A stretch of DNA of 33,142 nt from Anaerolineales bacterium (lineage in GTDB: Bacteria > Chloroflexota > Anaerolineae > Anaerolineales > Villigracilaceae). Numbering within the stretch: position 1 is the first letter of the stretch; the number at the start of each line of letters is the position of its first letter. The stretch covers positions 233 to 33,374 of the forward strand of contig JASEHI010000025.1 in NCBI GenBank assembly GCA_030018695.1, written 5' to 3'. Below are positions 3,810-26,210 of the stretch, piece by piece. The notes under the pieces are model-generated. The model saw nothing but the letters and a program-made list of their open reading frames with translations, was not told where the DNA came from and made no database searches. Made by a program: the position numbers and the translations under genes.

Positions 3810-4896
3810 ATGCAAGACTTGATTGATCGTTTGTTCGCTGCGGGAGAGCTAATCTTTCAGTTACTGGTGCGTCTTTGACTTGGCGTCAAAGGAATCTCAG
3901 CTCGCGCTATTTGAAAAAGAAATAGAAGCATCTGATTTCTGGGACGATCCCTCCCATGCACAGCAAGTCATGAAGCGGGCTTCCGCTTTGCGCGAGGAAA
4001 TTGCCGATTGGCGCGGCTTTGCGCACAAAATATCCGACGCTTCTGAGCTGGCTGGCTTGGCGGACGAATCTTTGCGCGCCGAGCTCGAAAGCGAGGTCAC
4101 GGTCATCGAAGCGGAGTTAGACAAGCGTTCCTTCGCGGCCATGCTCTCCGGCCCTCACGACGCCGAGGACGCCTTGCTTGCCATCCACGCCGGCGCGGGC
4201 GGCACCGACTCGCAAGATTGGACTGCGATACTCATGCGCATGTACTTGCGCTGGGCCGAGCGCAATGGTTATGAGACGGATATCTGGGATATGACCGAGG
4301 GTGAGGAGGCGGGTGTAAAAAGCGTCACGATTGCCGTCACCGGCCGTTATGCCTTTGGCTACCTGCGTTCGGAGAAGGGCGTCCACCGCCTGGTGCGCCT
4401 GTCGCCTTTCGACTCCGCCCGTCGCCGCCACACTTCCTTCGCCCTGGTGGAGATATTGCCTCAGGCGGCGATGGACAGTCCCGACGAAGTATATATTGAG
4501 CCGGCGGATTTGAAAATTGACGTCTACCGTTCATCCAGCGCGGGCGGGCAGAATGTCCAAAAGAACGCCACCGCCATCCGCCTCACCCACCTCCCGACCG
4601 GCATTGTCGTCACTTGCCAGAACGAGCGTTCCCAAACGCAGAACCGCGAGAACGCCATGCGCGTCCTGCGCTCGCGTTTGTTGGAGATAAAGACCGCCGA
4701 AAAGGAAGAAGAGATCGCTGTCCTGCGGGGTGAATACACCAAGGCCGAATGGGGCAGCCAGATCCGCTCGTATGTGTTGCATCCCTATCAGATGGTGAAA
4801 GACCACCGCACGGAACATGAAACTGGCAACACCCAGGCCGTGCTGGATGGCGACCTGAATGCCTTTATGGAGGCGTATCTGCGGCATGGGTCGTGA
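3810..4896 (+). CDS. prfB: Peptide chain release factor 2, with programmed +1 frameshift
   Basis: RF2 recognises UGA and UAA stop codons in the ribosomal A site and triggers peptide release. The first 22 codons (from ATG 3810, preceded by GAGGT) end at an in-frame TGA (3876-3878). Reading shifts +1 at CTT TGA C, giving ...LLVRL-D-LASKESQ..., and continues to 4896, for about 361 residues, close to E. coli's 365. The second part holds the stop-codon recognition tripeptide SPF (RLVRLSPFDSARRR) and the catalytic GGQ loop (SSSAGGQNVQKNATAIRL) that enters the peptidyl-transferase centre. The frameshift allows autoregulation: low RF2 slows termination at its own UGA and promotes shifting. The gene sits 64 bases after the antitoxin gene, with no obvious promoter of its own. 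Confidence 0.93.
3864..3879 (+). promoter_or_regulatory. prfB +1 frameshift site
   Basis: CTG GTG CGT CTT TGA C: the slippery CTT (3873-3875) followed by TGA C is the conserved RF2 recoding signal. GGTG at 3866-3869 lies three bases upstream of CTT, where an internal Shine-Dalgarno-like element is expected (AGGGGG in E. coli). The match to that element is weaker here. Confidence 0.85.
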
Positions 4897-17146: not shown

Positions 17147-18814
17147 TTATCCTTCGCGGAGCAGCGTGCTTACTTCAGCGAGAAATTCGTCATTGAGGAA
17201 ATCGCCTTTTTGCATCAGGGCCTGGATCTGGCCTGTCAGTCGGCTTTTCTCTGCGGCGGTCAATTCTTTCGCGGTTGCGACAATAACGGGGATCGCGGCT
17301 GTCGCCGGCGAGGCTCTGAGGCTGTCAAGGACGCTGAAACCATCCATTTCTGGCATCATTAAATCGAGGATGATGAGATCGGGGATTTCACGCGCGATCA
17401 TCTGCAAGGCTTCTTTGCCGCCAGCCGCCTCATAAATCGTGTAATTACCTTGCGCTTGCAGGATGCGCCGGATAAGCTGGCGCGCCTCCGGGCTGTCGTC
17501 CACGATGGCCACGCGCGGGAAGCGGTCGGGGGCGATGTGGCTGAGCGCGGAAAGCAGCCCCTCCTGCGGCGTCTCTTCTGCCCGCCGCTCGGTGAGGTCC
17601 ACGTTGCGCGTCCACTGGTCGCCCAGCAGGAAAGGTTCGGTCGGCATGGTGTGGCCGGTGCAGTTGACCACGACCGTCTCGTCAGGTTTGATCACACCCG
17701 CCCGTACCAATTTGAAGAGACCGGCGAAGGCGACCGCCGCCGCCGGTTCCATGGAAATTCCTTCCATCTTTGCCAGCACGTGCATAGCCCGATAAGCCTC
17801 TTCGTCGCTTACGCTTTCGAAGACGCCTTTCGTTTTGTCAATCCACTTGCGCAGCAAGGTGTACCCGCGTCCCGGGTCGCCGGTTGCCAGCGTCTCGATG
17901 TAGGTGTGCGGCGAAGTGACCGGGATGGCCTTCTCCAGGCCCTCTTTCCAGGCCGTGACCATCGGCGCGCAGCCTTCGGCCTGGATGGCGGCAATCGCCG
18001 GGATGCGTTCCACTATGTGCATGGCTTGCAGCTCCGCGAATCCTTTTGCCACCCCCAGCGGTCCCATCCCGCCGCTGATGGACTGGATGTACCAGTCCGG
18101 CGTCCGCCGGGGGGCAGAACCGAAGGCGGGTGCGGAAAGCAGCGTCAGTTGTTCGGCGATCTCGAAGGCAATCGTCTTCATCGCCTCGATCGAGGTAATG
18201 GTGCGCGCGCCCATGTCCAGGTAGAGGTTGCGCTGGTGGGCGAACTCGGCGGCGATCTGCTTGGCCTGGTCATACGAGCCGGTCACTTTGACCACCTGGC
18301 TGCCGTAGAGGGCGATCTCCCGCATCTTGACCGCCGGGACGAGGCTGGTGACGAAGGCCCACAATTTGATCCCGGCGCGGGCCGCGTAGGCGGAGTACGC
18401 AATCGCCACGTTACCCGTCGACGCGGCGACCATTTCGGTGACGCCGGCTTCTTTCAAGGCTGCCACGGTTACGGCAGCCTGGCGATCCTTGAAGGAATTG
18501 GTCGGTCCCTGGCGTTCGTCTTTGATGAAGATGTTGGGGCATCCCAGCATCATGCCGAGTTTGTTGGCCCGGATGAGGGGCGTGCCGCCCTCGCCGAGGG
18601 AAAGGGTTGGGTCGGGGTTTTGGACTGGCAGGAGGTCGCGATAGCGCCAAAGGTCAAAGGGCTGCCCATCCAAGCGGAGGAGAAAGGTATCGGCAAGGGA
18701 TTCGTAGTCGTAGCGCGCCTCGCGCCACTGGCTGTTGCAGCGCGGGCAGTTGACCGAGGTCGGGAAATAAGGTGCGGCGTCGCCGCAATCAAGACATTTG
18801 ATAATAAAAGACAT
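17147..18814 (-). CDS. Threonine synthase-like PLP enzyme fused to a response-regulator receiver domain
   Basis: A 555-residue two-part protein. Residues 1-30 form a rubredoxin-like zinc ribbon (C7, C10, C23, C26). Residues 60-410 are a fold-type II PLP enzyme: LGEGGTPLIRANKLG, then KDERQGPTNSFKDRQAA with Schiff-base Lys109, STGNVAIAYSAYAARAG, the phosphate-binding SISGGMGPLGVAKGF and CTGHTMPTEPF. This matches threonine synthases, which convert O-phosphohomoserine to threonine, though a related lyase activity is possible. After a linker (EETPQEGLLSALSH) residues 434-555 form a full receiver domain: VAIVDDSPEARQLI (Asp439/440), phosphorylatable Asp484 in IILDLMMPEMDGFSV, Thr514 in VATAKE and Lys536 in MQKGD. 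All catalytic receiver residues are present. No stop or frame change lies at the junction. It starts 39 bases after a large sensor kinase. An enzyme-receiver fusion of this type is unusual to me. Confidence 0.92.
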   Translation of the reverse strand: MSFIIKCLDCGDAAPYFPTSVNCPRCNSQWREARYDYESLADTFLLRLDGQPFDLWRYRDLLPVQNPDPTLSLGEGGTPLIRANKLGMMLGCPNIFIKDERQGPTNSFKDRQAAVTVAALKEAGVTEMVAASTGNVAIAYSAYAARAGIKLWAFVTSLVPAVKMREIALYGSQVVKVTGSYDQAKQIAAEFAHQRNLYLDMGARTITSIEAMKTIAFEIAEQLTLLSAPAFGSAPRRTPDWYIQSISGGMGPLGVAKGFAELQAMHIVERIPAIAAIQAEGCAPMVTAWKEGLEKAIPVTSPHTYIETLATGDPGRGYTLLRKWIDKTKGVFESVSDEEAYRAMHVLAKMEGISMEPAAAVAFAGLFKLVRAGVIKPDETVVVNCTGHTMPTEPFLLGDQWTRNVDLTERRAEETPQEGLLSALSHIAPDRFPRVAIVDDSPEARQLIRRILQAQGNYTIYEAAGGKEALQMIAREIPDLIILDLMMPEMDGFSVLDSLRASPATAAIPVIVATAKELTAAEKSRLTGQIQALMQKGDFLNDEFLAEVSTLLREG

Positions 18815-24972: not shown

Positions 24973-26210
24973 GCTGATGCCTCTTTCATCGTGCCGTCAT
25001 AATTTCCTATCAACGAGGTAGTAGGCCCATTGCTCCAGCAAATCTCGGCTTCGTGTCCATGGCAATACTTTTAGCTGGTGTAACGCAGAAGTGACATACG
25101 ACCTTGCTAATGCGTGTGTCTCCTCGATACCACCTAGTGTCTGGAGCAAGTGGATTGCCTCGACAACATCCGATTGGCTTGCAGATTTGTTGCCTAATAT
25201 GCTTAGAAGGTGTGCTTTCTGTTTCGCCGAGGCCCGTTTCAGAGCGTAAAAGACAATGGTTGTTCTTTTCCCTTCCCTGAAATCTGAGCCTACAGGCTTC
25301 CCCAATTGGCTTTCGTCGCCCACGACTCCTAGGATGTCATCTTGGAGCTGAAACGCTGTTCCACACCTAGATGCGAATTCCGATATTGCTTTGACCAATG
25401 GGTGGTCATTGCTAGGTACATTGAGTCCAATCATCGCACCAGCAGCTCCGGCAAACCTGTAGAGAACGCCAGTCTTTTTCCATAGCATATCTGCGATGAC
25501 TGCATCGTCCAGAGACTCGAATGACCGATTTGAATACTGAATGTCCAGTGTCTCGCCTTCGATGAGAGTATTCTGTACATCCCAGTATAACATTTGGAGG
25601 ATACTTATTAGGGTTTCTGGTGCAGTAAAACCATTCTTGGCGAGCTCACACATTAGTGCTACTGACCAGGCCTGCTGGGCATCTCCTGTAAGTATTGCCA
25701 GAGATGTTCCGTAGTGTTCTGCTTCGGTGCCTTGTAAACCGAGTTCCTCTTTCGCTCTCTGTGCGAACTGGGCATGCACAGTAGGTAAACCTCTCCGCAT
25801 GCTATCCCGGTCAATGATGTCATCATGGACGAGGGTCCATGTATGATAGACCTCTATTGCCGCAGCTGCAGGTAATCCGTGATCTTCATTTCCACCCACG
25901 GCGCTGCAAGCCAGTAGAAGTACGGCTGGCCTTAATGATTTGCCTCCAGCCCAGATGTAGCTTAGAACTGCCTCTCGTACATGCTCAGGCCGAAAATGCT
26001 CCTCATAACGTCCAGCGCGAAGGAAGTCCGAGACTCGCCTCTTGCGTAAGTCCAATTCGTGGAGAAGTTCCTCGTATCCAGCTTGTGCTCTTTTCATCTT
26101 GCATCCTTTCGTTGTGTCAACCTCTATTTTACACGGATTAGATGAATTGGACTAAGCGATTCGATGTTTTCAGCGCCGGTGGCAAACATGGCGATGCGGA
26201 GTTGTCGCGT
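24256..26210. other. Foreign-looking 2-kb segment splitting a polyprenyl synthetase gene
   Basis: Between the two halves of a host-like polyprenyl synthetase lies DNA of visibly lower GC. In minus-strand order it holds about 27 codons resembling the tail of a type II IPP isomerase, a complete polyprenyl synthetase, and the front of a DUF4062 gene. I see no transposase, terminal repeats or target duplication, so homologous or microhomology recombination fits better than transposition. An AATTTGACG-like stretch at the right junction (about 26216) resembles the host idi 3' end. Confidence 0.6.
24997..26097 (-). CDS. Polyprenyl (geranylgeranyl-type) diphosphate synthase, intact
   Basis: A 366-residue trans-isoprenyl diphosphate synthase that condenses IPP with allylic diphosphates to make C15-C20 or longer chains for lipids, quinones or carotenoids. 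Motifs: AGGKSLRPAVLLLACSAVGG, the first Asp-rich motif in TLVHDDIIDRDSMRRG with the following PTVHAQF, LTGDAQQAWS, the Lys-Thr pair in WKKTGVLYRFAG and the second Asp-rich motif FQLQDDILGVVGDESQLGKPVGSDFREGKRT. All catalytic motifs are intact. The product chain length cannot be read reliably. AAGGATG precedes ATG 26097. The gene lies in the AT-richer insert and is 24 bases upstream of the chimeric DUF4062 gene. It may replace the function of the host gene that the insert broke. Confidence 0.9.
   Translation of the reverse strand: MKRAQAGYEELLHELDLRKRRVSDFLRAGRYEEHFRPEHVREAVLSYIWAGGKSLRPAVLLLACSAVGGNEDHGLPAAAAIEVYHTWTLVHDDIIDRDSMRRGLPTVHAQFAQRAKEELGLQGTEAEHYGTSLAILTGDAQQAWSVALMCELAKNGFTAPETLISILQMLYWDVQNTLIEGETLDIQYSNRSFESLDDAVIADMLWKKTGVLYRFAGAAGAMIGLNVPSNDHPLVKAISEFASRCGTAFQLQDDILGVVGDESQLGKPVGSDFREGKRTTIVFYALKRASAKQKAHLLSILGNKSASQSDVVEAIHLLQTLGGIEETHALARSYVTSALHQLKVLPWTRSRDLLEQWAYYLVDRKL

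Follow-up and report, generated by a model that had tools for sequence, protein, structure and literature searches.

A threonine synthase paralogue fused to a response-regulator receiver in a conserved kinase- and transporter-linked operon of Chloroflexota

A single gene in many Chloroflexota genomes encodes a PLP enzyme of the threonine synthase superfamily joined to a complete receiver domain, and it lies in a conserved operon with a sensor histidine kinase and an EamA-family transporter. We propose, with a probability of roughly 60%, that the protein is a two-component response regulator, with the PLP enzyme as its output, and that the kinase of its own operon switches it. If this is true, two-component signalling here controls an amino-acid-type PLP enzyme directly and bypasses transcription, an arrangement retained by many genera of one phylum.

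We analyzed a 33,142-nucleotide stretch of an Anaerolineales genome (the window; contig JASEHI010000025.1). A first-pass annotation of its letters had described one open frame with a zinc ribbon, a PLP enzyme, and a complete receiver. This description was borne out: the frame runs on the minus strand from ATG to stop without internal stops, and the opposite strand holds only shadow frames over this interval (Table 1). Pfam detects PALP (E value, 2.9e-66) and Response_reg (residues 435 to 519; E value, 7.8e-20) in the 555-residue product. The residues that the annotation had quoted (Lys109 in NSFKDR, Asp439/Asp440, Asp484, Thr514, and Lys536) are all correct, and the frameshift or stop between the two parts that it had named as fatal to its proposal is absent.

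Table 1. Features of the fusion gene and its neighbors in the window
Feature	Length or residues	Position	Strand	Remarks
EamA-family (DMT) transporter	316 aa	16179..17129	-	17 bp downstream of fusion gene
PALP-receiver fusion protein	555 aa	17147..18814	-	ATG at 18814, stop at 17147; has full-length homologues
Zinc ribbon, N-terminal	~1-51	18662..18814	-	Cys7, Cys10, Cys23, Cys26 invariant
Fold-type II PLP domain (PALP, PF00291)	72-387	17654..18601	-	Schiff-base Lys109 in SFKDRQ; phosphate loop SGGMGP at 247-252
Linker, predicted flexible	388-430	17525..17653	-	AlphaFold pLDDT <50 at 389-418
Receiver	433-555	17150..17518	-	Asp439/Asp440, phospho-acceptor Asp484, Thr514, Lys536
Sensor histidine kinase	1259 aa	18854..22633	-	GAF repeats, PAS, HisKA (H-box ANMSHELRTPL), HATPase; 39 bp upstream of fusion gene
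Single-domain receiver	155 aa	22673..23140	-	39 bp upstream of kinase; probable operon member
Second single-domain receiver	129 aa	23143..23532	-	TTG start; directly upstream of the first; putative operon member
Protein with weak N-terminal DUF4062 match and partial polyprenyl synthetase match	392 aa	23794..24972	-	
Full polyprenyl synthetase		24997..26097		Adjoins the gene of the 392-aa protein

Both halves of the protein have kept their key residues. Across 77 distinct full-length fused homologues, reaching down to ~46% identity, the four zinc cysteines, Lys109, Asp440, Asp484, and Lys536 are invariant; position 439 is D in 50 and E in 27, and position 514 is T in 56 and S in 21. The receiver thus carries the two acidic residues, the phospho-acceptor Asp, the Thr/Ser, and the Lys of a response regulator, and we ruled out a degenerate domain. 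The Pfam domain, the invariant Lys109, and fold matches place the enzyme part among the fold-type II PLP enzymes. Mean pairwise identity is 67% in the PALP part, 57% in the receiver, 48% in the linker, and 43% in the first 50 residues. In an AlphaFold model built from 20 sequences (mean pLDDT, 78; pTM, 0.66), the enzyme and the receiver are predicted to be connected through a flexible linker, and no interface between them is defined.

The order of the domains is conserved across species, being kept by all 77 homologues; the first-pass annotation had named such conservation as support for its proposal. The source genome, of 2.86 Mb and 94% completeness, carries a single fused copy. Among 60 relatives, the full-length fusion is present in 31 of 33 noncongeneric members of the family and 16 of 24 members of the order; no fused copy was found in three congeners (85, 66, and 94% complete). 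Many relatives carry a second fused copy, ~50% identical (clade B). Named matches to the fusion come from Anaerolineales, Anaerolineae, Ardenticatenales, and Thermoflexales metagenome-assembled genomes, and a draw of 400 Chloroflexota genomes added a separate lineage of six genomes of 6 to 7 Mb, one of which is presumably Herpetosiphon aurantiacus DSM 785. Since the fusion occurs at full length in the family, in the order, and in a further Chloroflexota lineage, with an identical domain order in dozens of independent assemblies, we could rule out frameshift, misassembly, and chance. Named matches beyond Chloroflexota cover the receiver part only, with no PALP-receiver fusion among them. Five clade B fusions (L043 to L046 and L048; 700 to 722 aa) have two tandem receivers behind the PALP domain.

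The first-pass annotation had called the enzyme threonine synthase. That name held as far as the superfamily; the protein is probably not the ThrC of its genome. The nearest solved structures by both sequence and fold are threonine synthases, with a Z score of 43.1 to the Arabidopsis enzyme. Nevertheless, the fusion reaches no curated NCBIfam threonine synthase cut-off: it scores 166.9 bits against 167.1 for TIGR00260 (thrC), a shortfall of 0.2 bits, and 250.5 against 303 for PRK08197, and it misses the other threonine synthase models by at least 50 bits. The same genome encodes a separate bona fide ThrC that scores 288 bits with TIGR00260, 121 bits above the cut-off, and has every ThrC motif. 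The motif NSxNPxRxEGQKT is common to this ThrC and to the four top-ranking solved threonine synthases. In the fused sequences displayed, it is missing, as is GNAGN; these motifs, of the phosphate-side and the PLP-phosphate loop, respectively, do not vary among the solved ThrC enzymes. The first position reads, for example, LDMGARTITSIEAMKT in the fusion of the window and LDRGxxSIxARESMKT in clade B, and the second reads GGMGP or similar. In the alignment columns of N154, S155, R160, N188, and T88 of the solved threonine synthase 1uim, the fused proteins have M/R/P, G, S/A/G, G, and V/A/K, respectively; several of these residues presumably hold the substrate phosphate in the Thermus enzyme. Housekeeping ThrC is an unlikely identity, given the second ThrC of the genome. 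Because the cut-offs are not reached, a separate ThrC is present, and signature residues are replaced, the name threonine synthase should be applied at the superfamily level only. We conclude from these sequence comparisons that the fused enzyme is a threonine synthase paralogue distinct from housekeeping ThrC. A third threonine-synthase-like group, comprising a protein of the same genome (L002) and L155 (422 to 427 aa), scores ~10 bits above the TIGR00260 cut-off and lacks the Arg of NPxR.

We used a profile of the PALP part to delimit the subfamily. Fused copies score at least 613 bits, versus about 300 bits or less for other threonine-synthase-like proteins. There are 55 subfamily copies in 41 of the 400 Chloroflexota genomes, and none of the 55 has a frame shorter than 549 aa, so that all are fused; the opposite outcome, that homologues never keep the fusion, was another result named beforehand as refuting. 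In Cyanobacteriota, 4 of 292 genomes have a member (492 to 528 bits). Three of these proteins are unfused (398 to 420 aa), the fourth is cut by a contig end, and no gene neighborhood is common to the four genomes (G487, G465, G579, and G512). In 299, 199, and 249 genomes of three other phyla, profile searches that had no positive control there gave no subfamily member above ~285 bits. A maximum-likelihood tree separates the fused proteins and their relatives from the cyanobacterial phylum from the genome's own ThrC and 1uim by a branch supported at 100/100. The fused proteins are monophyletic (94/94; 97% of bootstrap trees), and the branching order of the unfused members is weakly supported. 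Since the fused proteins form one group, a single fusion event is the simplest history.

To describe the gene context, we clustered neighbors over 77 loci; some loci were sampled twice, but each set of identical proteins entered the counts a single time. Within 300 bp upstream of the fusion, 52 of 61 clade A loci and 12 of 16 clade B loci have a HisKA/HATPase kinase on the same strand, compared with 29 kinases among the 275 other open reading frames of at least 200 aa in those loci. The neighboring kinase that the first-pass annotation had invoked is thus a lasting feature, as expected of a response regulator with its cognate kinase nearby. EamA is downstream of the fusion in 50 of the 56 clade A loci with enough flank. 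In 13 of 16 clade B loci, a stand-alone receiver follows the fusion within 300 bp, and in 7 of 16 an unfused PRK08197-type enzyme comes after it. These latter clusters (L134, L135, L136, and L139 to L142) thereby hold two paralogous enzymes each, the PRK08197-type “threonine synthase” (positions 4894 to 6096 in L134) lying ~300 to 560 bp past the fusion with the single receiver between.

The kinases differ in their own receivers. Where a clade A locus has the kinase, it is a hybrid with two receivers of its own in 50 of 52 cases; the kinase of the window and the clade B kinases have none. In the window, two single receivers precede the receiver-less kinase, versus two C-terminal receivers on 50 of 52 related kinases, so that the parts are alike and their arrangement differs. 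Matches between the fusion receiver and the terminal receiver of clade A hybrid kinases score 71 to 103 bits, which suggests that the fusion receiver was derived from one of this type. It is nearer to that terminal receiver than the two stand-alone receivers of the window are.

We envisage the following mechanism. The GAF/PAS histidine kinase of the operon would phosphorylate Asp484 of the C-terminal receiver. The phosphorylated receiver, on a flexible tether of ~40 residues, would then alter the activity or the oligomeric state of the zinc-ribbon/PALP enzyme; fold-type II PLP enzymes are usually dimers, and the effect could be up or down. The enzyme probably catalyzes an elimination or a replacement with a small amino acid as substrate; the EamA protein probably carries its product or substrate through the membrane. 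Given an enzyme-receiver fusion in an operon with a kinase and a transporter, the cell probably tunes a metabolic reaction directly through signal phosphorylation, and direct posttranslational control is the most economical reading. Several points weigh on the other side. The AlphaFold model defines no contact surface between receiver and enzyme, and the three congeners searched yielded no fused copy. The receiver might work by binding a partner. In clade A, moreover, it is hard to see how the phosphoryl group would reach the fusion receiver, since 50 of the 52 kinases are hybrids with their own receivers. A broader version of the proposal, in which the kinase directly switches the PLP enzyme and the EamA protein exports the product, so that the output of this phylum-wide two-component pathway is a secreted, so far undescribed, amino-acid-derived small molecule and not gene expression, seems to us doubtful at present.

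The first-pass annotation had favored direct control over threonine supply, with a genuine threonine synthase set by phosphorylation. The closest solved structures and the near miss with TIGR00260 both speak for this reading, as does the transporter, because the EamA family includes threonine/homoserine exporters such as RhtA. We nevertheless consider it unlikely: the bona fide ThrC is encoded elsewhere in the genome, the fused subfamily is split from it by the fully supported branch, the five 1uim residues are replaced, and the other models are missed by wide margins. Control of threonine supply is therefore doubtful.

The direction of signalling might also be reversed, with the PLP domain serving as an amino acid sensor or performing a tethered reaction whose ligand state alters phosphorylation or dephosphorylation of the receiver and so signals on to the operon kinase or the single-domain receivers. 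Receivers do abound around the fusion, on the clade A hybrid kinases, as stand-alone proteins in clade B loci, and in the five tandem-receiver fusions. However, the catalytic Lys, the PLP loop, and the zinc Cys are retained in every copy, as would be expected of an enzyme, and unfused relatives occur elsewhere; we regard this reversal as improbable. Least probable, in our estimate, is a role for the receiver as phosphate sink or localization tag, with catalysis left unaltered. Receivers serving as phosphate sinks are known, and the long linker, predicted to be disordered, would suit such a role, but the operon with a transporter and the strict single fusion retained throughout the phylum argue for coupling of signal to enzyme. 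We favor the response regulator with a PLP enzyme as its output.

This reading has practical consequences. Members of the subfamily carry the annotation threonine synthase, and for this reason many Chloroflexota genomes may assign them the wrong activity. Should the reaction be identified, the kinase-enzyme-transporter operon would become a test system for receiver control over an unrelated catalytic domain. A cultivated Herpetosiphon carrying the fusion, if the probable identity of that genome is correct, would open the fusion to testing.

The fusion shares with the threonine synthases 1uim, 2d1f, 2zsj, and 1e5x the overall fold (Z scores, 35 to 43), the SFKDR lysine motif, the ASTGN loop, and the EPA motif, and its zinc-ribbon N terminus resembles that of PRK08197-type proteins. 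Unlike them, it lacks NSxNPxRxEGQKT and GNAGN, has SGG[ML/I]GP and [ST]GHT where ThrC has TGHG/TGNG, bears a receiver, and belongs to a separate subfamily in the tree. It also resembles the cysteate synthase CapA2 (9k3c), with a Z score of 37.3 across 371 residues including the N-terminal part in a comparison of folds; the 9k3c chain as described has no receiver. No other protein of its genome matches TIGR03844 (cysteate synthase) as well as the fusion does, at 116 bits versus 50 and 33. We rejected cysteate synthase as its identity: the score of 115.9 bits falls short of the cut-off of 324.9, and the profile of the fusion is nearer to threonine synthase than to cysteate synthase (203 versus 88 bits).

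Receivers on metabolic enzymes are known from multiple bacterial instances, and the archaeal ones are narrow in phyletic range (PMC5847659). The pairing of a receiver with a metabolic enzyme is thus a recognized kind of response regulator. We found no description in the literature of a threonine-synthase-type receiver output, although the censuses of Galperin (2006, 2010) may list one. Like the known metabolic-enzyme response regulators, the Chloroflexota protein joins a receiver to a metabolic enzyme; unlike them, it combines a threonine synthase paralogue with a C-terminal receiver and a fixed operon of kinase and EamA transporter, and it is spread over much of a phylum.
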